Shown: one piece after another, positions 1 through 59,745 of the stretch
Position numbering within the stretch: position 1 is the stretch's first letter
Layout: each line of letters begins with the position of its first letter
NCBI RefSeq assembly: GCF_024713945.1
Contig: NC_134677.1
Coordinates: 7,586,001-7,650,000 of the forward strand
Direction: 5' to 3'
DNA length: 64,000 bases
DNA from: Dermatophagoides farinae
Taxonomy: Eukaryota > Arthropoda > Arachnida > Sarcoptiformes > Pyroglyphidae
Notes under the pieces: generated by a model
Told to the model about the DNA's origin: nothing
Database searches by the model: none
What the model saw: the letters and a program-made list of their open reading frames with translations, nothing else
Translations under genes and position numbers: made by a program

Positions 1-3000
1 TTCGCATCATTATTATTATTTTGTGTAAATTTGTTCAAATCATTTCTGTCGTTTGTTTGTTCTCTTTGGTTATATCGTCAATTTAACGATTGATTTTTTT
101 TTCATTCATTCATTCTTTTGAACCACTTAACTTTATCGACATCAAAAACACACGAACAAACAAAACAAGAGAAATAAAATGCGCTGAAAAAAACATACAA
201 ACACAAGCAAGTATACATATATGTACACCAAAAAAAAAAGAGAAAGATGTGAAGAGAGAGGTGCGGCCACACAGAATATTTGGATCAGATTAACTTTACA
301 AAGGAAAAGAAAAAGACTTGCAAAAAAAAAATAAAAACAATTGGCTACACACAAACACAGACACCAAAATAGTGAACATGAACAAATTGGCTGAGTGTGT
401 GTGTGTGTGTGTTTGTGTGTATTAACGACAACAACAAACATAAAATGATAATATAAGTGATGATTGCTGTTGATTTTCAATTTGTTTTTCATTCATTTTT
501 TGATGTGTAATATTCTCTCTGTGTGTGTGTGTGTGTGTATTTACCAAGGACAGCCCATTTAAGGCGTGTTAAGTAGCTTGATTGATTGAAAATAAGTATA
601 GTTAGCTAGACCAAATACACCAAATATATTACATGAATGCCGTACATACAATTCGTGGAAACAAGTACAACTTTTTTTTTCTCTTTCTCTTTTTTTTTTT
701 CTATTCTCAGTTTTTAACATTCATAAAAGTCTGTGTTTTTTTTTTCTTCTGTCGAAAACAATCCAATCGTCACATGCACTCTGAATATACAACATACACA
801 CACACACACATCTACATATCTTTTGCTTTGTTTGTGTGATTCTACAGAATCTTTTTTTTTTTTTGTTGTTGGAAATATTAGACAATTTCCAGCATTCATT
901 GGAACCAATTATTCATGATGATAGTACAGAATAATTGTTAGAATAATGATGATTGTCAATAAAGGTAATGTTCATATCGATAACCATAATAATAATAATA
1001 ATCATATATATGAGGATAAAACCAAAATGAACATTATTTTAAATGGGCAACCAATTAAAAAAAAAAATAGTAACGTTTGTGCAGCACACACACACACACA
1101 CATGATGATGATGAGAAATGAAATAAACATCAAAATGATGATGATGATAATTCCAACTACGACCATCATCATCATCATCATTCGATTTGTGCTAATTTTT
1201 CTGTATGTGTGTGTGTTTGGAAACTATCAGAAAAAAAAACGACAACGATGAAACATTTTTTGTTTTTTGGTGGAGTAAATTAAATGTAATTATAGTTGAG
1301 TACTACAACAAACACAGGTACAAACATAGAAAGATAGAGAGACAGAACATCATTTTGAAATATAAACATCATCATCATCATCATTGAGAACCTGGCGTCA
1401 TGCGTATACGTGTGCATTTTTCAAATAATTGTATTAAATGTAACAACACCAACATGACGACTAAATATCCGATTCCATTATATATGACTCTAGAATAATA
1501 AAAAAAAAGATACTCATGTTTAATTGTTATATAACATAAATGGATAGATACAGATGAACATTGATAGACTAAAAGAAAGAAGCAGAATATAAATTAGAAA
1601 CATTTTGAAAAGAAAAAAGGCAATAGAATAAATTGAAAATTAACCATTATAACCTGTGTGAAGAAGATGAAGAGAATTTTTCGACTTGACTTTCTTTGCT
1701 TGTTCAATATAATCGAACGATCTGTTCAATGTTTTTATTTTTTTTTTATTTTTTTCGGATGTTTTCGTGTTCATTTGTTCGATTAATCGATCAAGTTTAA
1801 TTAAAGTAACAAGCAAAAAAAAAAAAAAACAAAAAACAAAAACCTATACCAAAATGAAGCCAATTCACACAATGAGAGAATCACAAAGATGGATTGCCCA
1901 TCGGGTTTAATTTTCGAAATAAACAGAGAAAAAGAGAGAGAGAAAAAAAAGAACAGAAAATTCATTCTACGATCATAGAATAATTGTTTTTAATTAACTG
2001 AATGGTATTTTTGTTTCAGCTGAAAATTGAATAAAACCATTAATATTTCTATACCCAATGTTGGATGCAATGTCTGGAACCATCACTAGAAATGTGATTA
2101 TATTATTCATCTAATCATTCAGTGGAAAAAAAGCTTCAAAATTCGAATTGAAATTTTTTTTTTTTTTTAAACATTGATTATATCAGGTCTAGCCAATTAT
2201 TTTCAAAACAGAAAATCTTTCAGGTGTTTTTTTTTTTTTGCTAGCTTTAAATATATTATATAATTCATTACAGCATTGATGATTATATATTGTTTTTGTT
2301 CATTTCGATAATGTTGATGATAATTGGCAAAATGAATGATTTTGATTGAACCTTGAAGAAAAGGGGGCTAATTTTTTTTCAACCTTTCATCTACCTTTAT
2401 TTTTAAAAAAAAGGATGGCATCATTTAACCAGTCAATGGTTGTTTTTTTTCGAGCACAAATTAACGATCGATTGATGGAAAGAAAAACATTGCATTTTTC
2501 AAAAAGGATTAAAAAAACAACGACGAAATTTCACATCTTTCCTTCGATAATATTTCGACTTTTGTGAATTTTAATTCTTTTCTCTCTCTCTCTCTCCTTT
2601 AATCCTATTTATATATCAATTGGCTATTAACAAGAGAGAAAGAAAAAACCCCAATAATGATGATGATTTAACGATATTAACAATCAATCAATCAATTGAC
2701 TATTAAACGCGTATTGAAATTATCAAATTTTCTCTCTCTCTCTCTCCTTCTCTCTCTCTCATCAACAATTTCACAATTTATTCATTAAAGTTTTGAATTT
2801 TATAATGGAATTGTTTTTTCTCTCTTTCTCTCTGTCTTTTCTCCATTATCATAATCATCATTGTGATGCAATTTAATTTGGGATAAGATGTGAATCACAC
2901 ACACACACACACACACATTTAACATCGATGTTTTCATCATCAGTGGAAGGAAATAAAAGGAAACAAAAATTTAATAACGACCATTTGAATAAAGATTCAC

Positions 3001-4197
3001 TGGATTCATTTGATAGTCAACATCAATTGTGTAATAATAATAATAATTATTATTATTTCTGGAAAATTGCAAACTTGACGAAAAAAAAAAATACAAGCCA
3101 TGTTATAACATCAACAACAATAAAAATAATGACAACAGAATCTTTTTCCAGTACCAGATCCATGATATGATGGAACACGCGAACTGGGAAAACTAGGATT
3201 ACAAAACGAAACGAAAAACCGGGGGCTGATGGTATACACACGTATTTACATTATGAATTTTTCTTTCATTGTTATTGTTGTTGTTGTTGGATCTTTGAAA
3301 TCCCAAATGCACATTGCATACACACACACACACACACACACACGCTACAAAACAACTAAACTAAAATCAAAAATGTTAGTCTGTCTGTCAGTAATAATAA
3401 TTGTTAAACACACACACACACACACACACAATATCTACCTATTCTAATTCAGAATTAAATAGGAAATACCTTTGAGATTTCATCATTTTCTCATTCACAG
3501 TGTATGTGTGTGTGTGTGTGTGTGCAAAACGACAAAAACATTGGAACTTGTTGTTGTTGGAAAGATAAAATCGACATAGTTAACAACATGCAAGTAAAAT
3601 GAACGGGACCCAGGAAAAAAAAAGACTTGTGGGACCTAGAGAGAAAGATTGTTGTTTGGCATCATCATCATCATTCACATTAATGTAAACGTGTGCCACA
3701 CAAACACATCAACAACAACAACAAAAAATTCATTACATTTTCCCATTGTAATTGTGATGAATTTTGCTTGCTTGCTTGCTTGTTTTGTTGCAACACTACG
3801 AATTGGTCAATTCAAAATGAAAGATCTATCTATCTATTCTATATATTATATATAAAATGAATGGGAAATTTTTTTTTCTCTGTGTATGTGTGTGTTGTAT
3901 GTTTATATTTTAATTAACAATAAACATCAAAAATACAAAACCGTAAACGTGTCTGTAAATTAAATTATAAATAAATTAACTTTTCGAAAATTGATTATTG
4001 TTATTATTTTCAAGAAAATTTCCCATTTCAAAACCCAAACATCCAAATAATATAGATAATAATAACCGTAATACATCAAACGCCATTTTCATTTATGAAT
4101 TTTACATTTTCATTTTCGATAAATATATTGACGGTTGGCATCTGAACAAAGTGTTCCAACGAACAAAAAAACATTGAGAATTTAATTGAAATTATGG

Positions 4198-4200
<3 letters not shown>

Positions 4201-4243
<43 letters not shown>
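4201..4243. repeat. (CA)n microsatellite, 43 bp
   Basis: An uninterrupted CA dinucleotide run of about 21 units, the longest CA run noticed in the window. It lies in non-coding sequence. Confidence 0.95.
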
Positions 4244-4246
<3 letters not shown>

Positions 4247-5807
4247 AGACCAAAATAGATAAAAATGGAACAAATCGATAAAATGCACAAAATGATTTTT
4301 TTTGTACAAATCATTTTAGAATAAATGTTTTTTTTTTCGCTATTATCATCGATGATTATCATTATGATGATGATGATGATAATTCGTGATCAACCATGAT
4401 GATGATTATGATTGAAAAAAAAACGAAACAAACAAAGATTTGAAATGAAATTTTAGCTATTAAATGGTGATTAAGTAGTGGTAACAAGTAACCTTGATCA
4501 TGATCATGATCAATAAATGAATGAATGAATGAATGTATGGCTGTTGTTGTTGGTGATCATTTGCATATGGACATGAACAAGTATTTTAAATATCATCATC
4601 TTCATTTAAATTAACCTAGGATCCATCATATATATATATATCGAAATCATATACCATTAACCATGTTTGCGATTTGATGATGAATTTAAAAGAAAGAAAG
4701 AAAAAAAAATATTCATTTGAAAATCACGAACTTTTAATGTATATCATCTTGGATAGATATTATTTGTTTATTTATTTTTTGTTTGAAAAAAAAGTCACGA
4801 GTATCAAATTTTGTCTCTCTCTCTGTGTGTGTGTGTGTGTAAGTAGTTTTTTCATTCTATTCACTCATTCATTAAATGATCCATTTTTCTTGTTGACCAC
4901 AATGAACAAAATAATGACGACGACGACGACGACGATAATAATGATGACAATGGCAACAACAACAACAACAACAACTGGCTAGAAAATCGATCCAATCAAA
5001 TTGATGAAATGAAATTTGATTGACATGGCAATGCCAATTGTATAACTTACAAATGATAATAATAATAAACAAAACAGGACATGAACAAAGTTAACTTTGT
5101 AATTAAGCTAAATTGAATGGTAAAAGCCGACGAAATAAGACAACAACCACTGACAACTTTCAAAGACAACGACTGGTACACAGATTAGCTTGCGGCTATC
5201 TTTATATTTTAAATAATAATCAATGTATTTGGTTGTTGTTGATGATCATCATATCATCGTGATCATCAGACACATTTTACTAATTGAAACCATAACTTTT
5301 TTTTAGTGTTTGTGTCCTAATTAGTTGGGATTTTTCCCAGAAAATATAAATATTACGGAAAATTTCGTCGAAAAAAAAATTTCGTATCGATTGATTTGGA
5401 ACATATTTTGATATATATGAAACAAAAACAAAAAAACAATAAAACTCTATATCATCATCATAAAATAATCGATTTTGGCTGGCCAGGTGCCTATATTGTA
5501 AAATTTTTTAAAAAAAAGTAAGATATTTCTTCATTCAAACATACACATCTTACAATTATTTATGATTATCATCATTAAATATCAGCAGCAACCATGATTA
5601 TTTGAAAATTTTTTTTTGTTCAATGACTACAATAACAGAAAAAAAATGTTTGACCACGATCAATGGGCTGTTCAATGCACGATTTTTTTTTTGTTCTCTG
5701 TGTTCATCATTCATTCTGTTTATAATAATCGTAGAAAAATTGAAAACTCTGTTCAACATTATTAGGCTGATTTTATCCAATACAAAAAAAAATCAGTTTC
5801 AGAACAT

Positions 5808-5833
5808 ATGATGATGATGATCATCATCATCAT
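5808..5833. repeat. Perfect palindrome of ATG/CAT triplets
   Basis: Thirteen bases of ATG repeats (5808-5820) are followed at once by their exact reverse complement (5821-5833), giving a 26-bp palindrome with no spacer. It lies in non-coding DNA. Confidence 0.9.
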
Positions 5834-7439
5834 CAGAAAAAGAAATAAATGATTCAGATAGATAGCCAATCAACGTTGACCAGTGGCCAAAACATTTATA
5901 TTTAACTTTAACTTATGTTTGCACAATTGCCCCTTGTGTGTTTGTGGTATATTTTTTTGGGGTGCTTTATAGTTTAAAATTTATTATTATTATTACAGAC
6001 AACACCTCTTTTATTGTTATTTTGATGATGATTGGTAGTCATCATTTTATTCTCTCCCTGCTTCTGCTGCTGCTGCTGCTATTGTCTCAGAGCAAAACAT
6101 TATTAAAAGCATCAAACACATAATGTAGTCAATAAATGTAATGGTGTAATTTTTATTGTTGTTGTTGTATGATCGCTGCCAATTTTTTCATCAAACAAAA
6201 CAAAAAAAAATAATCGATGTTAAGTGTGGCAGTGTGGTGTTTGTGTGTTTTCAATCAATTTTTAATATGATAATGATCATCAACATTATCATCATAAATG
6301 ATTTCTAACTAAACAAACCAAAAAATAAAAATTCACAATTCAATTCAATTTAAACGATATTTTTTTAGGCTAAAAAAAAATAGAAAGAATCATTCGTCAT
6401 ACTATATACACATGAAACAACATTGGACAACTAAAGTTGACTAAGTGATTTTCATCATCATCATCATCATCATTTTTTTTCTCTTTCTTTTAAACAGTGT
6501 AGAATGTGTATAACCAATATGATCGACTATAATCAAGTAAATTGAAAATTATTTATCACGTGCCACACGTTTGTTTGTGTGTGAGGGTATATTCTGGATT
6601 CTTGACATGTAATATATGTGGTATAATAATAATAATAATAGCAAAAAGCAAAAAAAAACACCACTTCTCTTTATCTAAAAAATAATTTTGGGGAGGAGGG
6701 GGGTTGTTGGCGAAGGGAGAGTAGAAAAATAAAGTTTTTTTTTTATTTATTTATAAATATTTACCTCGTCCTCCTCTTTTTCATAGCATTTATGATTTTT
6801 GTTGTTGTTGTTGTTCTAAAATTATTTTCATCATTTATATTTTAGATTCGATAATAATAATAATAATAATAATAATTTTTTTTCAAGATAATCACTTACC
6901 ACACATGATAATAATGGGCCCATTTTATAAAACGAAAAATAATGATGAAGAAATGGAATATGTCTAAATGGAATTGTGATGTGTAGTAATAGTATAATAC
7001 ACACATAACATACACATTGAACATCATCATCACAAGTATATATTTTGTTTGGCTATATAATGATAATAATAATGATAATTGAATATGTCTTCAATGAGAA
7101 AAACAGAAAAAAATATACAGACAACAGACACTTATTTACAAAGTGTGTGTGTGTGTTTGTGTGTTTGTGTGATTGAATATGTCAGATGCCTGTCGTTTGT
7201 TTTTCGTTTTCAACAAACAATGTTTATTTGTCGGTCTATTGTCGGTTGGTTGATGATAATCATCATCTTGTTATGGCTGCTGCTGCTGCTGTTGTTGTTG
7301 CTGTTGATGACAGATCCCTTAATAGACACAAACAAACAATAAAGATGATCAAGAATGAAAGAAATGAAAAATTCAAATGTCAATTATGGCAAAAATCTCT
7401 ATTTTTTTCAAATTACATACTTAAGCGGCCATTATTGAA

Positions 7440-7441
<2 letters not shown>

Positions 7442-7472
<31 letters not shown>
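7442..7472. repeat. (GAT)n microsatellite, 31 bp
   Basis: About ten uninterrupted GAT units in non-coding DNA. The same triplet, in other frames, supplies many of the poly-Asp, poly-Ser and poly-His tracts in genes of this window. Confidence 0.95.
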
Positions 7473-9559
7473 TAGTATGAATGTTATGTAATGTTATTCA
7501 ATGTATTAAAATGGACTTGTAACTATCGATTTGAAACGATTCACGTTTGATTGATTGATTGATTGATAATGATTTGAATGTATATATCTGGGATAGTTTA
7601 ATGTGGATTTTTGAGAAAAAAAAATCAATTTTTTTTCTCCCATCTTTGTTTTGATTACATTTTGATCTTGTTTTTTTTTTGCCGAAAATTTCTTTGTATT
7701 TTGTTGGGGTAATTTAATGTTGCTGTTGTTGATCACATCAGTTTAAAAATTTTAAATTACTTAATACTGCTGATGATGATGATGATGATGATGAATCCAC
7801 GAAAAACACTGACATTGATGAGTCTTTTCGAATGATCAAAGATTCGAATCTTGAATTTTGGTGCAAAATAGCCGCCCATTCATGGTCAGATTGACATAAA
7901 CACGGTCTATTGATCGATGATTGGATTCTAATCAAACAAACAAATTTTGTTCTTCTCTCAATCAATACATGAATTCAATTTGAACGAGAAAAAAGAATTC
8001 AATCAATAATTGAAAATTGGCAATTATTCAACCGTATAAATTGTTTGTTTTTTTCAATATTTGTTTCGTTTGTCGCAAGTTTGCACCCAAAATTTTCGTT
8101 TATTTATTTTTTCATTGAAATTAAAATTTTCAAATCAATCGAATTCTTTTTTTTTTGCTACTTTATAACCATGACGATGATGATTGGTACAATCAATCGA
8201 CCGATCGATGCAATTCAAATAAACACCCGATTGACATTATCATCATCATCATCATCATCGATTGATCGGTTGAATTGTTGTTGATTGATTTGATTTGATT
8301 GCCAATTTTTTTCTTCTTTGATTTTTATTTATTTATTTGATCGTATTGCAAAACAAAAACGATAAGATAAATTACAAGATCATTTCGGCTGAATAATGAT
8401 GATAATGATTGAAGCAATGAGGCGTGGTTGAAACAACAACAAAATTCAAATTCAAATTCAAATTTCAATTAATCACAAACCAAAAACAAAGAATTTCCAA
8501 AATTTGTGAATTCGAAATTCCAACTGCCATCTTTTGAGTGAAAAATGTAAACATCAAATGTTTTGATTATCCACAACGATAGATGGCAGCCATTTTATGA
8601 TCAAAGTTTGTTAGTAATTTTTCAGACAAAAATCGATCAAAATCATATCGTTCACATTTTAGGCAAATCAACACATATGAATATGCTTTTTATCGAAATA
8701 AAAAAAATCCATCAAATTCTTGAATCGAAATATAATCGGATTTCACATTTACTTACTTTGTATACTCTCATGTAAGATTATCATTACCATTACTTTTACT
8801 TAGTTTGATTGCTTTTTTTGCACAAATACAATGAATGAATGATGAAATGGTTTTCCCATTATCATTATTATTCTTATGTAATATGGTCAATATTCGCTAA
8901 CAACACTTATACCTTACATTAATATAAGTTTTGTCACTGTGTGCTGATACTACTCACCCATCATCATCTGCATTAAGTAGTGTATTGCAAAATGGCAATT
9001 ATCGTAATTGTTCGATGACAAATCTTATTTCTTGAAGAGAAAGAGAAAAAGAGAGAGAGAGAAAAGGAAACGAAAATAATCGAATGTTTTTTTCTTTCAT
9101 TTGATTTGCAATGATAAATTTAGAATTGATTTGGACTGATATTCTTTTTTTCGGATTCAATCGAAGCTGGTCCGTGTGTGTGTATGTGTGTGCGTTTTGA
9201 TTCATTCAAATCGATTTTGAGCGTGACAATTGTGAATTGATTTGATTCAATCAAAACAACAACAACAACAACAACATATGACACGTGCCATAAAGATAGG
9301 AAATTTGTTGTTGTTGTTGTTGTCGTTGTGGTGGTGGAAAATCCAAAACACGAAAAAATTCCATTCAAACACACACATATAAAATCATATCTATTATTTT
9401 AATTGAAAAGTGAACAAAAATGAAAAAAAAACGATTTGCAAATTATCAATATAGAGTTGAATTGAATATTGATTGATTGATTGATCGAATGAATGAATGA
9501 ATGAAAGTGTGAGAAAAAAAAAGAATTTTTTCATATTCTGTTGTTGTGCTTCTTCTTTT

Positions 9560-11156
9560 TCACAGAAACCATTGCGAAAATAAACCTCTAGTGGTGAATC
9601 GTAATTGATTCACATCATCATCATCGTCATCGACTACATTATTACTACCACTATTATTATCATCATGGAAATCAGTGTTGATAATGTCGAAATGGCCACT
9701 TTTAATTCCAATTTGGCCATTTTCATCCACATGGTCCTCGTTAACATCGTCATCGTCATCATCATCATCATCATTATCATCGACATCGACATCGACATCA
9801 ATTAATAAATTTTGTGAATCATTTGAATCCGGATTCATTGATGATCTTTTTCCAATCATCATTGTCATTGCTGTTTGCGGTTGTATCGTTATTGTTGTTG
9901 TTGTTTCATCATTATTCAATGAATCATTTCGTAATCGTTGTTGATGGTGTTGCTGTTGCATGGACGATTGTTGTAATTTCCGTTTCGTTTTATATCGGCG
10001 ATTTTGGAACCTTTTTATTGAATGCAAAAATTAAATTCATTTGGACAAAAAAAAACAAAGACAAAAACTTTTTCGCTTACCATATTTTTACTTGTGTTTC
10101 AGTCAATTTTAATGTTCTCGCCAATTCCGAACGTTCCGGTCCGCTTAGATATTTTTGATGATTAAAACGTTTTTCCAATTCATAAACCTGTGCATGTGAA
10201 AATGCTGCCCTTGATCGTTTCTTTTTCGTTTTCGGTTTATTCAATTGATTATTTAGATTATTATTACTATTATGTGATTCTAACGATGGACGAATTTTAT
10301 TATTATTCATACAATGTCGGCCACTGGTCGATTGATTTCGATGATTAAAATCGGTGGTCATATCTATTGAAAATCGAATGGTAAAAAAAGAAATTTTCAT
10401 CATTTTAAGACAAATCTAACCTTTTATTGATAATGATGATGATGTTGTCGTCATATTCTCAGCTTTCAATTCCAACGATTGTTGCTGTGGTTGTTGTTGT
10501 TGTTGTGGTGAAGAATTTTGTTCATTGAAAATGTGAAATTTTCTCAATAAATTACAATTTTTTAATAATCGATTATCATTATTCATAAGGAATTTTTGAC
10601 TATTATACAATGACGATGACGATGATGATGATAACATGTATTGGTGATACATTTCCAAAAGATTTTGATGATGATCAACTATTGTTGTAGACGTTGGTGG
10701 TAATGTTTGTGTTTGATGATGATGATGATCGTTGTGATTTACCATTACCGGAATCGATGTTGTTGCCGTTGACCGATGATGAATCCATGAATGAAAATTT
10801 GAATAAAATTGTTCAGCAGCAGCTTGTATTGCAATGTTGAAATCATCATGAGATATAATTGATTGTAACTGATGATGATGATGATGAGAATGAACCGATA
10901 ATGTTCGATCGGATATGGCGATAGAATTCAATGATGATGTATTATCGTTAATTATTGTTTCATTTAACCCTGTCGTCGTTGTTGTTGATTCAATTAATCG
11001 AGCAATTGGAATTGGATTTAATTCATCATTACCACCTGGTTGTTGTTGAGATAATTCAAGTCTTGAATGATCACGATCATCATCTTTACGTTTTAATAAT
11101 GATGATATTGAAAATGGATTGGAATTCAAATTCTGTTGTTGCTGTTCATGCATCAT
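9560..11156 (-). CDS. bap: Bagpipe / NK3-type homeobox transcription factor
   Basis: Three exons on the minus strand, join(9560..10010, 10081..10363, 10421..11156), give a 489-residue protein in one frame with GT-AG introns of 70 and 57 bp. The homeodomain has the NK3 signature: an [16 protein letters not shown] helix 1, YLSGPER, then LTETQVKIW joined across the second intron to [11 protein letters not shown]. That intron splits the codon for Trp48 of the homeodomain. Near the N-terminus, PFSISSLL resembles the EH1/TN repressor motif (Groucho-binding in known NK proteins). The rest is rich in Gln, His and Ser runs, and the C-terminal part carries long Asp tracts made of GAT codons. Known bagpipe proteins are nuclear factors that specify visceral mesoderm in insects. 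The start is the first Met of the exon 1 frame; an upstream exon is possible. Identity is firm on the homeodomain; function in this animal is inferred. Confidence 0.92.
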
Positions 11157-12297
11157 ATTTCGAAGTGGAGAATTTTTTCAGAAATTTCAGAATTATCACT
11201 GACTTGTTTGTGTGTGTCACACACGCGCCACTTCAAATGGAAACTCAATTTTTTCTTGGAAAATTAAGTTTTTTTTTGTTTCATACAAAATTTCATTGAT
11301 TTTTTCTGGTAATCCATGTATGTAAATAAATTTCGTATTTTTCTTCTTATTATTCTTCTTCTTTTTCACAGTTCTCAATATCAATAACATCCCTCTTTAC
11401 ATAAACATACAAACAAACACATCTCTTTACTGTGTATTGAGATGTGATTGACTACTTTTATTTTGAATGTGAAACACACAACAGCCATTAAAAATATTAT
11501 TACACTGAAAAAAATAAAATTGTAGGCGGCTTTTACCATTGAACAAACTAAACTGTGATATTTACTCTAAATGTTAAACGATAAAAAAAGGGCGGGCGTC
11601 AATCAAATATGCGCCAATCATATACACTTACATAAACATCACAAATGTTTTTAACAACAGTAGTAGTAGTCTGAAACTTATTCTTCCTTGTTTGTTCAAT
11701 GTTAATATCGGATGTGTGTGTGTGTGTGTGTTTGTGACACATAAAGGGCGCTACTACTACTCGTCACCCAAAAATGAAAAACTTTATCTGAGTATTAAAT
11801 AGTTAAGTGCAAATGAAAAGCTTCCTTCATGATTTTAATGGATCCTAAAAGTTCACAATCATCCTAAAAATTTTTAAAAAAAAGGTTGAATTTTTTTTTA
11901 TCTTGGGAGAGTAAAATAAAAATAAAAAAAATTTAATTCGAGAAACAAGAATTCATCAATAAATCATTGAACAATCATGTTTGTATCGTTCGACTTTGTT
12001 TATTTTATCATCAATTTTATTCACTGATCTTATTTCGAATGAATTTTGAATTTAAATCTAACTAATTATTATTATTATCAGGTAAGGTAGCTCGATAGAT
12101 TGATCATGACCATGAATATGAGCCAAAAAAAAAAGATGGTGAACAATGATAATACGATGATGATGAAGATGACATCTTTATCGGAAAAAATATATAAGAA
12201 AATATGAAATATTAGAAGCGCGAGAAGAAATTGAAAATTATTAACTTGAAAAATAAAACATAACATTCATATCAAATGACAGCAAATGGTGGTGATA

Positions 12298-12300
<3 letters not shown>

Positions 12301-12329
<29 letters not shown>
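12301..12329. repeat. (ATG)n microsatellite
   Basis: A run of ATG units upstream of bagpipe, followed shortly by a second GAT run near 12354-12372. It forms poly-Asp in one open frame, which I regard as a repeat artefact. Confidence 0.9.
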
Positions 12330-12330
<1 letters not shown>

Positions 12331-14511
12331 ATGTGATTAGTGTGTTTTCTTATGATGATGATGATGATGATGAAGATTTACCATTGTGTTTGATTTGGAT
12401 TAGCTTAGTTTACCTTTTTGTTGTTCAATGCTTTAAAGGAAAAAAAAATCTTTCATCCAAACAAACAACCAAGAGAAACGATAAGGAGTGTCGTTCATTT
12501 TAAGACGATAAGATCGATGATCATCATCATTAGGAGGAAATTTTTTTATTCCAAAAAAAAAGAAAAAAAAATCTTAATCATTATCAATTGATTTGAAATG
12601 ACAAACATTTGTTGACAAAAAAATAAAAAAAATTAATAAATGCATGTTGTCGCCAAATAAATAAATAATTGATAATCATCATTAATTGCAAAGTATGTAT
12701 GTGTATATATATAAAGTAGTCTAGCTGATGAATAAATCATCAAATGTGAAGAGACGAAGAGAATTTATTTATTGAATACAAATCAGAGAGAGAGAGAGAG
12801 AGAGAACTCTGAAATCTGCTTATCATCATTATTGATCACCTGTGTGTGTGTGTGTGTGTGTGTGTTCTCGTAAATCAATGGATAAAAAAAATTTTCTCTC
12901 CCACTCCTTGTATTTATGAAAAGAGGCTTCAACAACTGTCAACAAGAAAAGAAAAAATTTGTAAATAATTGTTTCATAGTTGTATTTAGAAAAATTTTGG
13001 TTTATCATATTATCACATTATCGACTTTTTCACTCATATTGACTAGTCAAAAAAAAAATAAGTAATTAATTAACGATAAAACTATGCTTTTATTGTGATG
13101 ATGATCAACGAAAAAAAATGCTCATGTCGTTGTCGTTATTGTCGGCGTTTTAATGTTTTGATGTGTTGATGACATTTATATTTGACCATATTCGAAAATA
13201 TGTATTTTCCATCCTTATTATTTGGTATATGGTTAGTATGATAAGGTGAGGTTAATGTGCGTGTGTGTGTGTGTGTGTGCAGCGTCGATCCTTGATCATT
13301 GATGATTATTATATCCAGATATCCAAACTTTGAAGAAAATGAGATGATGACAGGTGGCTATAGTAAGCTTTTCATTTATATTTATATATGAAATGAAATG
13401 TAATTGATTTGTCAACATTGATCATTTTTGACTTGAAAATAGAAAAGAAAATTCATCAACCAAAAAAATCATCAACTAGGTGCGTTCTTTTTTTTCTATG
13501 ATGAAGAAAAATCAAAAATCCAGAATAATTTCAGATTTTAGAAATTGTCGATAGAAAAATACATGGTTAACATGATAATGATGGTGGTCCACATCACACG
13601 ATCTCTATAATCCGGTCTCTTTACGGATTTTTTTTCCGTTTAAAATGATTGACTTTAGTTGATGATGATGATGATGATGATGTTGACGATGATGACGACG
13701 ACATTGACATCAAACCAAGGCTTTTAAATTTATTTATGCTTACTTAATGTATACATATATTGATTGTATACAAATGGATTCGTGTCAAAAAAAAAATTGA
13801 AGAACTGCAAATTGGATCATGTTTCAAAAAAAAAGAAAAAAAAAATGTGTCGGAACTAATATTTACCCAGCCAGATATTTTAAATAGCTTAGTGTGCGGT
13901 ATTTGGAACTTTTCTTCTTATTTTGTCCATTTGTGACCAGAAATCGCGTTCCTTCAGACGGAAAATGCTGCTAAATGCTTGATGATGAATGTTTTTTTTT
14001 TTTTTTGTACACATTCTAATTTGTGTTTTATGGATTTTTCTTTTTTTCTCTCTGGATTGATGGTGTTTGTGTGTGGCATGTAAATTGATGTAAATAAATG
14101 TTTAAATAAAATACTACTACTATAGTTTGATGGGGTGACTTATATAGTTTGTTTCTTTCTTTCTTTCGCTCTTATGAACTGTAATTTAAGCCTTCGAATG
14201 AAGAAAAAAAAAATTCAAACAAATGATGAAAGGGAAAGTCCAATTATATTATTCTTATTATTCATTGACTGACAAACAGACTATGAATGCATTTGATGAA
14301 GAATAGAGACATATAATAATCGCGAATCGACTAAAAAAAAATGAGAAAATCAGTCCATTTTCAGTAGCTAATTTCCACTGTATTTGAGGCCACCATCATC
14401 AGATCTATCTATAACAAATGGAAAAAAGAAAAAAAAATAAATCGATCAAATATATACACACTTGTGACAGGCACATTTTTACTATTTAATGATGTTGATC
14501 AATGACAGGGA

Positions 14512-14555
14512 TTGTTGTTGTTGTTGTTGTGTTCATACAACAACAACAACAACAA
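14512..14555. repeat. Perfect inverted repeat of TTG and CAA triplets
   Basis: A 19-base arm of TTG repeats (14512-14530), a 6-base loop (GTTCAT) and a 19-base perfectly complementary arm of CAA repeats (14537-14555). The CAA run continues three bases past the arm. It could fold as a hairpin in RNA or single-stranded DNA. It lies in intergenic sequence. Confidence 0.9.
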
Positions 14556-16528
14556 CAAGGATGAATACATTTCGGAAAAGCTGCTATACGATTTATAATA
14601 TAGAAAAAAAAATTGGAAATTGAATACATCGTGATGACAAACAAGAAGCATTTTATCGTCTTCGTATTTTTTTTTCTATTTAGAAAAATAATTCGACACT
14701 AATTCGTCGCGACGTTCATCATAACCATAATCATCATCATCATCATCGTCAATCGAATATGGTTCGAATCGTTATTTTTTTTTTTTTTTTTTTTTTTGCA
14801 AACATTCGAATCTAATTCAACTCAACAATATATGAAACACACACACACAACTCTTCGATACAAGATGATGATAATTCTTGATGGTTTGAAAAAAATGGTT
14901 GTTAAAAAATGTTTTAAATTCAATTAATTTATTTTTTTTTTTTTGTTCGTTTTGAACGCTAATTTAAATATATCAATTATACAATGACACAATTGTGTTA
15001 ACATTGATGATGATGATGATTTGTTTATGCAATATTTGATTTGAATTTTTTTTTATTTATTAGTGACGACGAAAGAATTAGTGTTTTATCAAGAAAATCA
15101 AGAATTTCTTTTACATTGAAAAAATTTCCCGTTAAATAAAGATGAATTTTTTTTTTAATTACCCTAAAGAAAGGAAAAACAAAATTTCAATTCTAACACA
15201 AAAAAAGTAATGATGATGATGATGATGATGATGATGAAAATTCTTTGCCCGAAAACACCAGAAATTCACCAGAATTATTGCCCGATTTGGCGCGGCATTT
15301 TACTATTTCATGCGCGGTATCTGTTTCATCCATTGATGGTGATCATGATGATGATGATGATTTCAGAGCAATTAAATTTTTTTTTTTTTGTTCAACATCA
15401 AAGAACGGCTATGGAAAACGGTACCGATGACGACGACGACGACGACATTAGCTGTCGGTTTGATCAAAAACAAAACAAGAAAAATTTCGAAACAAGAGGT
15501 CATACAGAACGATTTGAGTCGAGCGGCATTTTTTTTCACACTATATTTTTGTAAAAATGCTCTTTGGTCATTGATGTGTTGAATATAAAATAAACAACTG
15601 CTGTTTTTTGTTGTTGTTGTGTTGACCGACACACGCACACATTCAAAGAAAGCAGACACATTAAACATCAATACAATATAATTATTCGGACCACACCATC
15701 ATCCGGATATTATTGTTGTTGTTGTTGTTAATTATTCCGGTTATTATTGTCATGACCAATGACAAGTACAAACACACATAGATGGATGAATGTGAAAATA
15801 CGAATACAAAGTGTGTTAATTAATTCACAATTCAATCGATCGAAAAAGAGAGAATTTCAATAACAAATCCAATTAAATCAATACGAATGGTGATCAAGAA
15901 AAAAAAGAGGTCAAAATCAGAATCATCACCATTTGTGTTCGTTCAATCGATTTTCGCTCCTTTTCACACATGAAAAGAGCTCTTATTCCACACACACACA
16001 CTCATCATTCGAACCAGAAACCGAAATTAAAGAAAAGGGAAAAAAACATTACTAACGAGAATGAGAAACTATTCAATTCGAATGTTAAACCAGCCACATA
16101 TACAATACACACACACACACACACACACACAAGAAAGTATTTGGAAATGATTTTCTGGTGAAAATTCAATTGAAATCAAATCAAATCAAATCATCTTCAT
16201 TTTACAAACAAAGAAAGTTTTTTTTTATTTCAATTTATATAAAGCAATTTTGATTACAACAATCAACAACAACAACAACAACAGAAAAACATTTAGTAAT
16301 CAACAAATCTCAATTGAATGAATGAATGAATGAGTGAATGCTAGACAATGATTGCCATTAATTGACAAATAGATTTTCTTTTTTCTTTGATCACGAGAAT
16401 CATTGAATTTTTTTTTTTTTTTTTGGTTCTTGTGGAATTTGTGTGTATATAATTTTGTTCTTTTTTTTTAAATAAAAAATTTTCCAAATCGTTTTTTTCG
16501 GGTTAACTGTGTGTGAAGAATTAACACT

Positions 16529-18433
16529 TTATTCAAATGTAGAACGATATGTTTTACATTGTATATGATATTGATAACCTAGATATAATGGTATTAATAA
16601 AAGAATACTTCCAATCGTATATGCTGTTTCGATTCCAAATCTCCAGAATACTTAAAATGGAATAAAAAAGTTATTTTAAAATTTAAAATAATCTATATTT
16701 ACGCTTACTGAACGACATTGTCATTGGTCCACATGCACGAGCTAATGCACCGATTGAACGAAATATACCTAATAGGACACCTTTTTGACTTGAATTACCG
16801 AATGATGAGAATGTAGTCGATAATGATGGTATAACGATTGCCGATGAATATGCATATGGTATTAATCCTAGATAAAGTCCGGTAATGGTTTGTGCATATC
16901 CAACAATGATAAATGCAGGTATGACCAATAATATTCCCTACAAAAAAATGATAATAATCATCGATTAATTTGAATATGAACAAAGTTTAATTTAAAGAGC
17001 TAACCGATAAAAGAAGATGATTGTAATAATTATGATTGATACGTCGTAATAAAACACCTTGTATCAGAAACATTTGAAAACCAACGTAGAAAAATAATTT
17101 TCCTTGATCCATACTATGACAAACAAGTGGTGTGGAAGGGACAGAAAAAAAGAAGAAAAACACAAATTAATTAAAAATTAATTAATTAGTTAGAAATTTT
17201 CAAATTACCTAGTAAAATTGAAACGAATAAATGTTAGAAATGCAAGTGTAAATTCTAATCCAGAATAGATGAATAAGAAGGAAAAATTGACAAATGCACC
17301 ATATCGGAGGATGGATTTTTCTGTATAAAGAAGACGAAATGTGTTAATTAACTTTTAATCTTTTCATTTGAATCAATTCATACCTTTGGTATTTAAATTT
17401 TTAACAATTTTAAATGAAAACAATGACCATGGATTAATATAATGGAATGCATCGACAAGACTGTTACAAAGTGATGTAGCCTATAGTAATTTTGGATTGA
17501 ATGTTTGTTAAATTAAAATTTACACCGTCCAAAAAAAATAAATTACTTACTCGTTTATGAGGCAATAATGTTTCAGGTAAATAATGATATGAAAAAATCA
17601 TATTAATCAAAGATAAAATAAATGCAAATATTGGTGGGAATAATTGAAAACAAAATGAACCGGTGCCATCTGGTGGTGACCAATGTAATTTGGATAATAT
17701 TGCACCAATCATAGGGCCAACCTGTTGATTGAAAAATCAAATTAATTATTTTGAATGAATTGAAATCAGTAGAATTGATTGAACATACAATAAATCCAAT
17801 GGAAAATGCAATGCCAATCGTTGCGAATCCTTTACCACGTTTATTTTCCGTAGTAACATCAGTTACAATTGCTGTACTAAGACTAACATTTCCTTTGCTT
17901 AAACCATTCAGGATACGAAATAATACAAATATTCCAAAATGATTGATAGAAATTGACCAAAAAAAATAAGATATTGAAATTCCAGTTAAACAAATAAGAT
18001 ATAATGGACGGCGGCCATAAATATCCGAAAGCATTCCAATGATTGGCATCGAAATGAATTGAAGAAATGAAAACAATGAACCCAATAGACCACCGAATAA
18101 AGCTTTTATTTAAACGAGGAATGAAAAAAAAAATTATTTAATTGAACAAACAAAAGAATAATGATAAATTATCCACATACATCTATTGAACATTTGTGGT
18201 CCACCGATCCATTGTTGAGTTGATTGTATAAAATTATCCACATAATTATAAAGGCCACTCTGTACAAAATAAAATTGAAATTTTAAAATCATCAAGAATC
18301 AAATGGAATCGGAAAAAAATACCGTATCTTGTTTAGCAAAACATTCCAATAATGATGGCAATAATGGTAATATCAAAGTGAATGCCAGTAGATCGATAAG
18401 TAATGAAATGAATATGAATCGATTGACATTCAT
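16529..18433 (-). CDS. Mfsd10: MFSD10-like major facilitator transporter
   Basis: Nine minus-strand exons, join(16529..16650, 16709..16937, 17005..17113, 17209..17320, 17384..17480, 17551..17721, 17789..18102, 18181..18259, 18323..18433), give a 447-residue protein that closes in frame; human MFSD10 (TETRAN) is about 455 residues. Introns are short (about 55-95 bp). Family marks seen are LFGGLLGS, the MFS loop motif SDIYGRRPLY, SKGNVSLSTAIV, LFIYSGLEFT and the late QKGVLLGIFRSIGALARACGP segment. The chain is strongly hydrophobic, as expected for a 12-helix major facilitator. MFSD10 relatives are organic-anion or tetracycline-type transporters; the natural substrate is unclear. An AATAAA signal overlaps the stop codon, so the 3' UTR is probably very short. 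The ATG chosen is the first in exon 1 and precedes a hydrophobic first helix. It lies between two homeobox genes without any evident functional link to them. Confidence 0.9.
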
Positions 18434-18809
18434 TTTGACTACAGACACACACACACACAAAAACCGATTGATTGATTGAAAATTAAATTAATCGAAGCTT
18501 TCACTATGATGAGAATGACCGAATAGAATCAAAGAATAATTTTTGTGTATTATTATCAAAGGATCATTGTGATTTTTTTTTTTTTTTTGATTGTCGAAAA
18601 TTATGATGAAAAATGTGCAATTACTGGAAAAAACTTGTCAAACAACAATTTCTATTCAGTTGTGTGTGCAAATGTGTGTGTGTGTGGCCACATCAGCAGT
18701 ATTTCTTTATTAGTTTGTTGTTGTTGTTGTTGATTGCATAACAAACAACGATGAAGATACAATTAAGCTAAAAAATAAAAATAAAAAAAAATGTAGAGCA
18801 AATCGAATT
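18434..18809. other. Short intergenic spacer between GTF3C6-like and MFSD10-like genes
   Basis: About 375 bp holding CA/TG and TTG runs and a T tract. It includes the 3' flank of the GTF3C6-like gene, with a minus-strand AATAAA at about 18706-18711, and the upstream region of the transporter gene. No other feature is seen. Confidence 0.6.
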
Positions 18810-19313
18810 TTAATCAATCTCAGATGACGTGTCCATTTTAATAATTGTTGGTTGTTGTTGATTTTTATCTTCTTTCGGTTTCAATATAACACGTTTCATA
18901 ATAATTTTTGAAAAACTTTTATGAATTTCTTGAATAAATTTATGATTCGGTTCATATGCAAACAGAACCGATGTTTGTTGACGATTATCTAGATGGCCAA
19001 AAAAGAATGAATCACCAATACGTATCAATAATTTTCCATCATGTATGCCCAATATTTTACAATCATCAACACTATAACGTAATAATGGATGTGAATCTTC
19101 ATCAAATTGTAGATGAATTAAAAATTCTTCATCATCGCCACCGAATTGAGGTTGTTGTGATGTTTGATGATTATTATTAGTATTGGAATTTTCATCATCA
19201 TCATCATCATCAACATAATTATTATTGACAATTGGATTATTTAAATTATTATTATTATTACTACTACTGCTACTACTACTTGTTGTTGGAAGTGAATTTT
19301 CCGTTGGATTCAT
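18810..19313 (-). CDS. TFIIIC subunit 6 (GTF3C6-like), intronless
   Basis: A single 167-residue open frame with no introns. Residues from about 60 onward resemble the small TFIIIC subunit (GTF3C6 / tau55-type domain): an acidic lead, EEFLIHLQFD, then CKILGIHDGKLLIRIGDSFF, then SVLFAYE, and a basic segment with VILKPKE. In other animals this subunit is part of the TFIIIC complex that binds internal promoters of tRNA genes for RNA polymerase III. The first 55 residues are low complexity (poly-Ser, poly-Asn, and a run of Asp from GAT repeats). The domain is short and variable, so the assignment is good but not certain. Confidence 0.7.
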   Translation of the reverse strand: MNPTENSLPTTSSSSSSSNNNNNLNNPIVNNNYVDDDDDDENSNTNNNHQTSQQPQFGGDDEEFLIHLQFDEDSHPLLRYSVDDCKILGIHDGKLLIRIGDSFFFGHLDNRQQTSVLFAYEPNHKFIQEIHKSFSKIIMKRVILKPKEDKNQQQPTIIKMDTSSEID

Positions 19314-19659
19314 GATGTGATTGAATTATTTTCGTTAGAAAAAAAAATAAAAAATACTTTCACACAATTCAGACACACACACACCTGATTCGAATCGAAT
19401 AAAAAACATTCAGGTCCGTTCATAAAGTACATGACAAAATGAAAAAATTCAAATAATGTATACATTGGTTTTTTTGGCAATGATTTTGTTTGTTTTTTTT
19501 TTGAGCAAAATTTTTTTTTGTTTCCCAAGAAAATTTAATTTAATCAATTTATTAGAAAACTATCTAAATAATAATAATATATAATACACACAAGGATTTA
19601 AAATGGATTGAACTTCATTTATGATTGGTCCAATACAATGGACATTCTGTTGTTCCGTT
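19314..19659. other. Spacer between msh and the GTF3C6-like gene
   Basis: About 345 bp with T tracts and a short CA run. A minus-strand AATAAA at about 19548-19553 is a plausible polyadenylation signal for msh. No gene is seen. Confidence 0.6.
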
Positions 19660-21875
19660 TCATGTATTATTAACGTGATTAACGGCTAAATTTTCTAAGT
19701 TGTTATTATTGCTGTTGTCTTTTTGAGTTGCGGTAGCCATCAAATGATTTGCATGATGATTGAATAATGCTAACTGTCTAATTAAATCGGTCGATGATGA
19801 TTGATGTTGTTGTGTGGATGATTCTGATGTTGTCAATGAATTCAACATTCTGGTATGAGCCAAATTGGCTATATTTGGAATAATCGATGGATGCATACCA
19901 CGATGATTGACCGATGATGATAAATGTAATAATGAACGTGAATTTAATCGCAATTTTTCAATCTCTGCTTCTTTTAGCCGTTTTTCTTTGGCTCTACGAT
20001 TCTATCAATTGTTTTTTTTATATATATAAATCATAATTGTTTTAATTTTTGAATTGCAAAAAAAAAATTTTCGTTTACCTGAAACCAAATTTTCACTTGT
20101 GTTTCGGTCAAATTCAATGAACTACAAACAATGACAACAAAAATTTTTGATTATCAAAGATATCATGTGTGTGTGTGTGGGTGTGTGCATGTTTATCATT
20201 GTATTCACATTACCTGGAAAATTCTGCACGTTCAGCAATGGATAGATATTGTTTATGATGAAATTTTTTCTCCAATGCCAATAACTGTTGTGTGGTGAAT
20301 GGTGTACGTGGTTTACGATTCGATTTATGACGTCTTAGTTGACATTTAACTGGACCTGTTTACAATTAAATTTTTTTTTCCAATGAATCAATCGGACAGA
20401 TTTTAAAAATGAAAATCAATTAAATAAAAAATGAGCAGCACATTATATGTACACATAAACACAAAATAAATTCATCAATAATTTATATTCTGGCAATAAT
20501 AATGATTTCATTGATTGCGTGCAATTAATCCATTGGTTATCCAATCAATAGAGAGTATAAATACTAGGTGAACACAATAATAATTAAGTTATTATCGCTA
20601 ATTACACCAAAAAAAAAAAAAATCAAAAATTAAAATGAAAACCTCAAATATATATGGTGAGATCTTTTTCTTTGTCCGCCTTTATATAGCTAAAATATTT
20701 CAATGATGATGATGATCATATATTGACTTATAGTATTAGTGTGTGTTTATCCGCTTGATCAATTATTATCTTTGATACATCTGCCCAATTTTGATGAAAT
20801 AATGATAAAATTACAGTGTTGAATCATAAGTTTTGGTGGTTATTTAGTGTTGTTGTTGTTCACAATTCAGCCAAATAACGACAAAAGTTGATCAAAAAGT
20901 CACGCGAATGGAATTATCAAACACACACACATACACACACTGTGTGTGTCTTGTGTTTAATCAGAAATCACCAAAATTTTGGTAATAAAAAAAAAATCTG
21001 CCGATTTTTTTTCCTATCCAATTGTTAATTCATTGATTTCTGTTTTGTTTAGATTTTATTATTATTATATATAGTCATCAGACACGAATCATCATCGAAT
21101 GTATTGTATTGTCAATGAAGATTCGGCAATGGCATGATTTAGGATGATGATGATGATAATTATCAATTTGGCTTCAAATTCCTCCCCTAATCATTATTTT
21201 CAAATTTGGTTACATTGATTTGATTTGATGGATAATTATTGCTTATTTGATAGAAAAATTTATTTTCTATTACAATTAAATTATCAATTGATAAAAATGA
21301 CACATAGAGAGAAAAGACAATAATTTAGCGACTTAGAACTAACGAAATTTTAAAAAAAAAGTGTTAACCGGTGATAACCGAATGTCATAAAGGCCATTTC
21401 AATTTGATTTTGGGAAATTTTTCCTTTTGATTTTTTTTTTGTTGAAAACTTACTATTTGGATTCATTGATGAATGCTGTTGCTGTTGTTGTTGTTGTTGT
21501 TTGATCAATTGTGTATTGAGCCATGTTAAAGATGATGCTGTTAGCTGTAATTGATTATGATGATTCAATTTGATCAATTGATTATTATTAATTTCATTCG
21601 ATAAATATGCTGGATGTCGATGATATATATGATGATGATGATGATGATGTTTGATTTTGTAAAAAATTTGTATCGAAAATTGTTCGTTGTTGTGGTAAAA
21701 ACAATTGATTAAAATTTGATTTCGGCAATGATGATTGATTTTGTTCCAATAAACGATCAATACTAAAAGGATGACCTATTTCACCGTTTACCTGTGTAGA
21801 TTCAGTTGATGTAGTGGATGATGATGATGATGATAATGCTGGTGAATGATGATGATGATGATTTTCAACGTTCAT
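19660..21875 (-). CDS. msh: Muscle segment homeobox (Msx/Drop) transcription factor, with apparent frameshift in exon 1
   Basis: Four minus-strand exons: 21454..21875, 20214..20355, 20079..20121 and 19660..20001. The homeodomain is clearly Msx class: [39 protein letters not shown] and [15 protein letters not shown], preceded by the Msx-type CQLRRHKS lead. The N-terminus carries HPFSIDRLL, an EH1-like repressor motif at the place where Msx proteins have PFSVEAL. Exon 1 does not read through in one frame. The start and the EH1 motif are in one frame; the part leading into the strong GTAAGT donor at 21453, which joins exon 2 in phase, is in another. The joined length has one base too many, and a six-T run near 21670 is the simplest place for it. 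This may be a sequencing error, an indel allele or an unusual splice. The homeobox is split by two introns, after Ser36 and after Gln50. Known Msx proteins pattern neuroectoderm and muscle. The family is firm; the exon 1 model is uncertain. Confidence 0.88.
20356..21453 (-). other. First intron of msh
   Basis: About 1.1 kb, long for this window. It begins with a GTAAGT donor at 21453 and ends with a TAAACAG acceptor before 20355. It contains AT-rich sequence, a short CA run near 20920-20940 and a GAT run near 21144. No exon is recognised inside it. Confidence 0.75.
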
Positions 21876-30667: not shown

Positions 30668-33600
30668 TTAATAATGATGATGAACAAAATTGTTGAAATT
30701 ACGTGTCGAACGCAATTGTCTCATCATACGTTCTTGATTGATATTGAAATCGGCGCTTAGATCCGGTACGGCACTATTACCGAAATGTTTCGATTTTTTA
30801 CCTTCATTTATCGTGATAACTTTGGATTCTTTTTTCTTAAAATACCAATATTCAATGACTAATGTAATGCAAGCCAATATAACACCGATAAATATGACAA
30901 TGAATACGCCGCCAATATTTTTGATACTGATACCATCGCTTTGTCTTCGTGAACCTTGACATTCTTTTTTCACTGCATCATTATTATTCCACCAACTTTC
31001 TTTTAGGTTTTCCAATCGTCTTTGATTCAATAATTTTAATATGGCGCTACTTAGCTTATCTTTTAAATCTGAATTCTGTTGAACAGCCAATGCAATTGGT
31101 TTACGGCTAAATTCATTACCAACACTTTGTAGCTCACAATTGGTCATGACAGCATATTTTACCAATGTTGATTCAGCTTTTTTTCAAAAAAAAGAATTAA
31201 TTGATTTCCTTAATAAAGACAAGTGATGAAACTTACCTATGAAAGCAAATGATTCACCACCTGTATCAGTTTTTTTCACACGTTCAATTGCTTCGGCAAA
31301 TGTTGCTGGCATTCCAGCCTCAATTATCTGTGACCAAATTTTCGTATATTTATCGCTTACCGGATAATCCCATACGGCCAATTTTGCACGTTCATCATCG
31401 CTAAGGCTATCATTTAATGACATATCTTTCCATATTCTTATTGTATGATTTGAGGATCGGCGAAATAAACAAACAAGAAGGTAAGAAGTTTATCAATTTT
31501 CAATTTGTTTTTCATACATACTCATAAAATTTTTCCTCAATTCCGGCCATTCGTTCGAAATAAGTTGATGTGGCTGTGCCTGATTGTGGTGCATATTTAA
31601 TTTTATATTGTCTAGCTAAATCATCAAGATTTTCAATTGGTGAATCCAATCGAGATACGGTCAAAAAGGCAGCCAAATTAGCTGTATATGAAGCTATAAT
31701 GATAAATCCAAATAGCCACCAAGTGGCAGCAACTAATCGACCGGATAGATTTCTTGGTGCCTCACCACCACCTTGTGGTGTCAATGATGTCATACAAAAC
31801 CAAAGACATTCTTTCAACGTAAATTCTCGTTGTTCTTCATCATTTTTGTATTTTTCTCGGTTATTATGAAAACTGTATGGGCTAAGTCTGTCGAAAAGAT
31901 ACATTAAAAAACTATAAACAAAATAGGTGATAATTTTGATTTCTCTAGATTTAAACATTCAATTTTTTTTATGCTAACCTTGTAAAAAAATATGCGGCCA
32001 AGATGCATAACCAAACTTTGGTTTCGAGTACGGTTAAAAATTTAAATAAATGTGATTTCGTTGTAGTTTTCTTCATGAGTATAGTTATACCAACTAAATC
32101 ATAATATGGTACGGTAAAATCGACAACAATTTCTCGTTCAGCCATTACAGAAATCGGTGCCAATGCTATATCGGCTTTTTTTCGATGTAATTCACCAATC
32201 AAACCGGTCCATTCACCGTTTTCATTTTTATGGCCATACATTGCATCATCAACCACACGTAATGTATAATCAAATTTGAAATCACTACTATTGACAATTT
32301 CTTTCAATAAATCAATACAATAGCCATAGAATCTATCATTTCCTGTTGTTTGATTATCATCTTTTATCATTACAAATGGTGCTTCCTATACACGAAAATT
32401 GAAATAGATAATCATTAGTAGATCGATTACTAACTAATCGATTTGTTTGTCCATATAAAAACAATTTACCACTATTGTAATAATCTCATAATGAGGTAAT
32501 CCATCCTGTTCTTTTCGTTCTTGTGGTGATGTAAAATATAATCGACCAAATTGTCCTTCGAATTCCCATTCGGCAACTTTTTTCACCTGTTTCACTTTAC
32601 CCATTTGAAATTCAATTTCATTGATTCGCATACTTAATTCTTGATAATTAAGTTTAGCATTACGATCGAATATGAATTGTCCAAATAGGCCATACATAAA
32701 TCGTGTAGCTAATGTTTCATAAAGATTTAAATTTCGTCGTTCATTCAATTGTGGTTCATTCAGATGTTTACCACATGATGGATAGGTAATTTCATTCGAT
32801 AATAACTGCCTTGTACTCTGTAACATATGATCAATTGTTTCCGCATAGAAACGTGAAAGATCATAATAGAAATAATTATCTACAATATGATGAATATCCG
32901 ATGTTAGATTTTCCGGTGTATCATATTCATAATGATGTAGATGTGATTTTATTGGTTGTGAAAGGAACACCTTTACATCATTACAATTATCACATTGAAA
33001 TCGGCCTTTTTCCTGGTCAGGCAAAAAAAGAGAAAGATCATTTCATGAGAGTATTTCATTAATTGATTTTCATAATGAATCAATGAATTACCTTGGAAAT
33101 GAAATACCATTTTCGTTGTCCACGTAACATTGATCGATGATGAGCCTGTTATAGAAAATGAATTTGATTCTGTCTTTGAAATCTTCAGAACATACACCCA
33201 TACACACACACACACACATACCATTTGTACAAGTCGGTTTAACATTGAAATGGAACCTAAAATGAAAAATGTTTCCCCATATTGATAGTTATATTTTAAA
33301 TCATCCAATGTTTTTTCAATCGTTTTATTATTAATCATTGATGACCAATAGATTTCTTTATGTTTTAGATTTTTAAATACATGACCACCAATGGCTTTCT
33401 CTATATAACGAAACAAAACAAAATGACAAATGTTAATAAAAAATTGAACCAAATTTAAAATTCTCAATTTGCTTACTGAATGTTTGATCATAAATGATGA
33501 CAATATGTTTAAGTTGAAATTGTTCAGATAAATCTTTGATTAGCTGTAATATGGTTGCTTCTGGTGTGAGCACCGAAACATATAGATTTTCTTCAATTTC

Positions 33601-59528: not shown

Positions 59529-59745
59529 GTAAGTTATTCTATACCAAAAAAAAACATTTAAAACAAAACAAAAAAAAACTTTTGCCATAATTTAAAAAGA
59601 AAATTTGTTCGTGTTTGATACCAATTTTGAGGTTAGGAAAGCAAAAAAATTTTTTAGACCATTTCTTATATTTATTTGTTTTATTTGTGTGTGTGTGTGT
59701 GTGTGAAACCAGAAACAACAAAATGAAACTCATAAATTAACTAGC

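Follow-up and report, generated by a model that had tools for sequence, protein, structure and literature searches.

Dermatophagoides farinae, a mite, carries the homeobox genes msh/Drop (Msx) and bagpipe (bap; NK3) close together within a 64,000-nucleotide stretch of DNA (the window: C1:7586001-7650000 of assembly GCA_024713945.1, which comprises 62.4 Mb in 22 contigs). This raises the question of whether the pair is a remnant of the ancestral NK homeobox cluster and, if so, what became of the other members, in particular tinman (tin; NK4). The results described below indicate that msh and bap very probably belong to a core NK cluster that was inherited from the bilaterian NK cluster, that extends beyond the left edge of the window and that has lost tin from between Msx and NK3. 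The coordinates of all features are collected in the table.

To place the locus within the genome, homeodomains were searched for throughout the assembly, giving 92 matches, of which 84 were read and eight, all weak, were left unread. Merging matches at 2.5 kb gave 82 homeobox loci genome-wide, 23 of them on C1. Homeodomains were typed by their nearest reference and by a maximum-likelihood homeodomain tree (36 references, most of them provisional sequences).

The msh homeodomain is interrupted by two introns. Once spliced it is identical to that of fly msh (a provisional reference) at 54 of 60 positions and to that of the solved Msx-1 at 52 of 58, and Msx-1 is also its best match in the PDB (E 5.2e-29). 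The tree places it in an Msx clade supported at 97.3/99, as expected for a member of the Msx family. Near its N-terminal end, in exon 1, msh encodes the EH1-like motif HPFSIDRLL. We note that the ATG frame of exon 1 (window 21454-21875) that contains this motif runs into stops and that splicing to the exon with the homeodomain requires a different frame, making the frame assignment provisional; the conflict could be due to a short intron that escaped notice, to an alternative first exon or to a discrepancy of the assembly at the base level.

The bap homeodomain lies across an exon ending at 10081 and another starting at 10010. It shares 50 of 60 residues with fly bap (likewise a provisional reference), and its best solved relative is Nkx-3.1 (41/52 identical, versus 40/59 for NKX2-5). 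In the tree bap falls outside the NK2+NK4 clade (90.8/99) and adjoins the NK3 references, and an EH1-like motif (NPFSISSLL) is located near its start. The original prediction had held that both homeodomains are unambiguous, and had named a phylogeny placing either of them outside NK3 or Msx as a refutation. The tree gives no such placement: msh falls with Msx, and bap stands next to NK3 and apart from NK2 and NK4, although the NK3 grouping itself is weak. The predicted spacing of about 8.5 kb on one strand was confirmed, as the open reading frame (ORF) ends of the two genes are 8,486 bp apart and both genes lie on the minus strand.

The original prediction had proposed a partly preserved cluster, and the sequence to the left of the window shows that it is larger than claimed. 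The coding ORFs of C15 (Tlx) end 0.3 kb outside the window and its homeobox lies 3.2 kb outside. The C15 homeodomain is identical to the provisional fly C15 reference at 54 of 60 positions and to solved TLX2 at 42 of 52; its best PDB matches are chain 3a01, labelled only as a homeodomain-containing protein, and then TLX2, and the Tlx clade is supported at 97.6/97. Another 93 kb along is ladybird (Lbx), with 55 of 60 residues identical to fly lbe and a clade support of 92.9/100. C15 and Lbx are about 10 kb and about 105 kb from bap, respectively, on the same strand and 91 kb from each other. Thus a flanking search for tin, ladybird, C15 and slou, which had been suggested as a check, returned C15 and Lbx close by; tin was not found and slou is 6.9 Mb off.

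Along the direction of transcription the order is msh - bap - C15 - lbx; the four genes share the minus strand and together span about 118 kb. Four of the five genes Msx, NK4, NK3, Lbx and Tlx are therefore linked on one strand, which is what characterises an arthropod core NK cluster, and the position of Tlx between NK3 and Lbx is that of the chelicerate form. By formula, the chance that four random points fall within 116 kb of 62.4 Mb is about 2.6e-8, and none of 2 million simulated draws did so. Moreover, each of the eight NK-core genes that were identified (two Msx, NK3, Tlx, Lbx, NK1, NK5 and NK6) resides on C1, for which the chance is about 1.4e-5 given that C1 holds 23 of the 82 homeobox loci.

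Table. Genes of the D. farinae NK cluster and related homeobox loci. Plain numbers are positions in the window; C1, C2 and C3 are contigs of the assembly.
Feature	Position	Strand	Basis or remark
msh/Drop (Msx), coding span	19660..21875	minus	ORFs, homeodomain, tree; homeobox gene
msh exons, at least four	about 21875-21454, 20355-20214, 20121-20079, 20001-19660	minus	
GTF3C6-like gene (TFIIIC triple barrel)	18810..19313	minus	weak Pfam and PDB matches
MFSD10-like transporter gene	16683..18109	minus	matching ORF 17606-18109
bagpipe (NK3), coding span	about 9560..11149 (C1:7596080)	minus	ORFs, homeodomain, tree; homeobox gene
No scored coding ORFs	1..9550		between bap 3' end and C15 5' end
C15/Tlx coding ORFs	C1:7580584-7585698	minus	ORFs; homeodomain at C1:7582698
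ladybird/Lbx homeodomain	C1:7489964	minus	homeodomain typing
slou/NK1	C1, 0.67 Mb		nearest reference and tree
HGTX/NK6	C1, 1.60 Mb		nearest reference and tree
vnd/NK2.2	C1, 1.97 Mb (C1:1969988)		nearest reference and tree
Diverged gene, perhaps Msxlx	C1, 1.99 Mb		nearest reference and tree
Second Msx	C1, 5.92 Mb (C1:5918707-5918874)		nearest reference and tree
Hmx/NK5	C1, 6.09 Mb		nearest reference and tree
Dbx	C1, 6.61 Mb		nearest reference and tree
Lbx, C15, bap, msh	C1, 7.49-7.61 Mb		nearest reference and tree
ems- or Noto-like gene	C1, 8.67 Mb		nearest reference and tree
scro/NK2.1 and H2.0	C2		off C1
Two ems	C3		off C1

The gene missing from this set is tin. No tin/NK4 gene was found in the 62.4 Mb assembly using NKX2-5 and a provisional fly tin sequence as queries. 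The three best matches to NKX2-5 were C1:1969988, bap and C2:182031; as candidates for tin the first was rejected because it reads as vnd/NK2.2 (NHRYKTKRA) and the last because it reads as scro/NK2.1 (NHRYKCKRQAKEKAM). All 22 matches to the fly tin query fell on sites already read. NK4 usually sits between Msx and NK3, although this is not a defining feature of the cluster, and the original prediction that the msh-bap gap of D. farinae holds no NK4 gene was upheld: across these 8.5 kb the best score of an NK2/NK4 profile was 5.3 bits, 20 shuffled versions of the gap having given 3.4-7.9, and a cryptic tin remnant there was rejected on the same grounds. In the bap-C15 gap the best score was 8.4 bits, a ten-position match just above the shuffle range of the msh-bap gap, the bap-C15 gap itself being unshuffled.

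Two other genes occupy the interval between msh and bap, as had been predicted, and the two names fared differently. The transporter is identified as MFSD10, since its ORF 17606-18109 matches PDB 6s4m (E 9.5e-29) and Pfam MFS_1 (6.4e-20); NCBIfam names for it are bacterial efflux models that score far under their cut-offs and were rejected. ORFs 16683-16937 and 17464-17736, which adjoin this match and have no Pfam match, are taken for further MFSD10 exons. The name of the GTF3C6-like gene appears weaker than that of MFSD10: Pfam TFIIIC_sub6 matches at E 1.2e-4 and 22.4 bits, just under the cut-off of 22.7, and GTF3C6 is the best PDB match with an E of 0.089. Both MFSD10 and the GTF3C6-like gene have a single match in the genome.

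Several points weigh against an inherited core cluster that has lost tin. The 43 reference homeodomains are provisional sequences, and the tree recovers the NK3 clade with weak support only (27.3/56). Because the PDB search gave no Lbx chain for Lbx, its best matches being an engrailed construct and BarH-like 2, the identity of this gene rests on the provisional fly lbe reference. Because 32 scored coding ORFs separate Lbx from C15, tight clustering is limited to msh-bap-C15; among the 14 of these 32 that were scanned, in whole or in part, Pfam matches included UTP15, cullin, a proteasome subunit, Paf67, NKAP, W2, Spaetzle, TPR and importin repeats. The top match to the fly tin query was the second Msx and not an NK2/NK4 gene. 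Eight of the 92 homeobox matches are unread, all of them weak and none in the match lists of tin or NKX2-5, and the absence of tin is not absolute because the assembly is 92.1% complete by BUSCO (PMC11074847). The latter two points favour the view that tin is present and was missed, being too diverged, split by introns or located in unassembled sequence. So does a diverged homeobox without a close reference at C8:3427757-3427888, as it is nominally closest to the fly tin reference (25/43; 55% over 47 residues in the tin-query search). However, it reads QIKTWYQNRR, versus QVKIWFQNRR in NKX2-5, and the tree puts it together with BarH (67.3/78). A published statement also holds that mites lack NK4 (PMC13088399), and we regard a missed tin as unlikely.

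Alternatively, the four genes could have been dispersed in an ancestor and rejoined by rearrangement, for which there is precedent in drosophilids, where NK genes reunite (Chan et al. 2015, cited in PMC10726417). In D. farinae, however, order and content equal the chelicerate core order minus tin, the same as that given for Sarcoptes (PMC10726417, PMC6107062, PMC13088399), all four genes lie on one strand and the other NK-core genes identified lie on C1 as well, so that a secondary reunion is very improbable. The original prediction had named a misjoin between 11 and 19 kb, which would create a false msh-bap neighbourhood, as a possible refutation. No support for one was found, apart from an unexplained slight mismatch in the sizes of C1 and the whole assembly (9,170,000 and 62,435,336, versus 9,172,953 and 62,428,314 as printed in PMC11074847). 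The assembly was built from PacBio, Illumina and Hi-C data (PMC11074847), its scaffold and contig totals are only 100 bp apart (PMC11074847 Table 1) and there is not one N in 260 kb of joined sequence spanning the window and its surroundings; the gene order, moreover, equals that reported for Sarcoptes (PMC13088399). A misjoin is thus barely conceivable.

An inherited core cluster without tin therefore remains the preferred explanation. The ancestral place of tin between Msx and NK3 now holds MFSD10 and the GTF3C6-like gene, the other core genes identified (NK1, NK5, NK6 and the second Msx) are scattered along C1, and Tlx adjoining NK3 with Lbx beyond is the chelicerate inversion. Linkage would most simply result from inheritance, together with a degree of constraint imposed by regulatory DNA that the genes share or that is interleaved among them; the 9.9 kb without a scored coding ORF from the upstream end of C15 to the 3' end of bap are only a hint of such regulatory constraint. 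The absence of NK4 from mites has been linked to the loss of the heart (PMC13088399), and the loss of tin in D. farinae would fit this published idea. Conceivably, in the dust mite lineage, the same rearrangement removed tin from its ancestral position and brought in the MFSD10-GTF3C6 block, with msh, bap and C15 staying together around it. We consider this doubtful; if true, the block would be a datable scar of heart-gene loss in heartless mites.

The four genes encode homeodomain transcription factors, which, as in other arthropods, probably act as repressors during the patterning of mesoderm, limbs and nerves. C15, like msh and bap, carries an EH1-like motif near its N-terminal end. EH1-like motifs have a role in repression by way of Groucho; msh, bap and C15 therefore probably repress their targets in this manner.

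In the Drosophila 93D-E NK cluster bap, C15 and ladybird are linked, as in D. farinae. The fly cluster differs in that it keeps tin and slou, msh has moved away, and Lbx precedes Tlx. The core NK cluster A of spiders has Msx1, NK3, Tlx and Lbx clustered with Tlx adjoining NK3, as in D. farinae (Aase-Remedios et al. 2023, PMC10726417), and the same Tlx-Lbx order (PMC10726417, PMC6107062); unlike that of D. farinae, the spider cluster retains NK4 and NK7, and spiders have a second, duplicated cluster (PMC10726417). The closest likeness is to Sarcoptes scabiei, for which the core NK order, the loss of NK4 and the lack of NK7 are described (Klementz et al. 2025 via PMC13088399). Both mites share these features, two Emx/ems genes and the inversion of Tlx and Lbx that is reported for chelicerates (PMC13088399). 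Compared by description only, they differ in that Sarcoptes has NK1 and NK5 after NK6 (PMC13088399), whereas the order on D. farinae C1 is NK1, NK6, Msx2, NK5, Lbx, Tlx, NK3, Msx1.

The arrangement, with its core order, lost tin and inverted Tlx and Lbx, is thus already reported for Sarcoptes scabiei; among the literature matches listed, we found no report of a Dermatophagoides NK cluster. What is new is the D. farinae case, the pair of housekeeping genes at the ancestral position of tin and a mite NK2.1 gene. This adds a second astigmatan mite, at chromosome scale, to the comparison of NK clusters, and shows that in a small genome the core linkage has persisted with tin absent. The presence of MFSD10 and GTF3C6 where tin used to lie offers a concrete marker for dating its loss.

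The NK2.1 gene at C2:182031 (region C2:181600-182300) reads VYELERRF...TQVKIWFQ, followed by an intron and then by the segment by which it was told from tin, and 46 of its 48 homeodomain residues read are identical to the provisional fly scro reference. Judged from its homeodomain, this gene is at odds with the published claim that mites lack NK2.1 (PMC13088399).

Elsewhere in the genome, tree support was high for NK1 (96.8/99), NK5 (98.3/99), NK6 (100/100) and NK2 (97.9/100). Slou lies on C1 like the cluster, yet 6.9 Mb away from it, and C1 also carries homeoboxes of other classes. Provisional NK7.1 and Hhex queries against the genome revealed neither gene, only sites typed to other families. 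The second Msx is 175 kb from Hmx/NK5, and 57 of its homeodomain residues were read in one open frame, unlike msh in the window. Diverged homeobox pieces at C1:1993663-1998267, about 24 kb from vnd, may represent the Msxlx of the NK2 cluster. On C10, Hox homeoboxes at 2.12-2.93 Mb are nearest to lab, pb, Dfd, Scr, Antp (two, one of them ftz-like by eye), Ubx and AbdB, with two unplaced; abd-A, which was absent from the reference set, was not recognised among the C10 Hox sites read.

On its plus strand the window further contains a zinc finger gene of the Zic type (58139-59587; Pfam zf_ZIC E 1.8e-22) and, on its minus strand, an ORF for a ligand-gated ion channel (35111-35794; Pfam Lig_chan E 3.7e-31), near which ORF 32437-33042 has no Pfam match. 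A gene on C4 matches solved Der f 21 at every one of 111 residues. Der f 2 has been assigned to chromosome 1 (PMC11074847), and the best group 2 allergen-type match in the genome, at C1:5872227-5872556, was a clearly non-identical relative of Der p 2/Der f 2.

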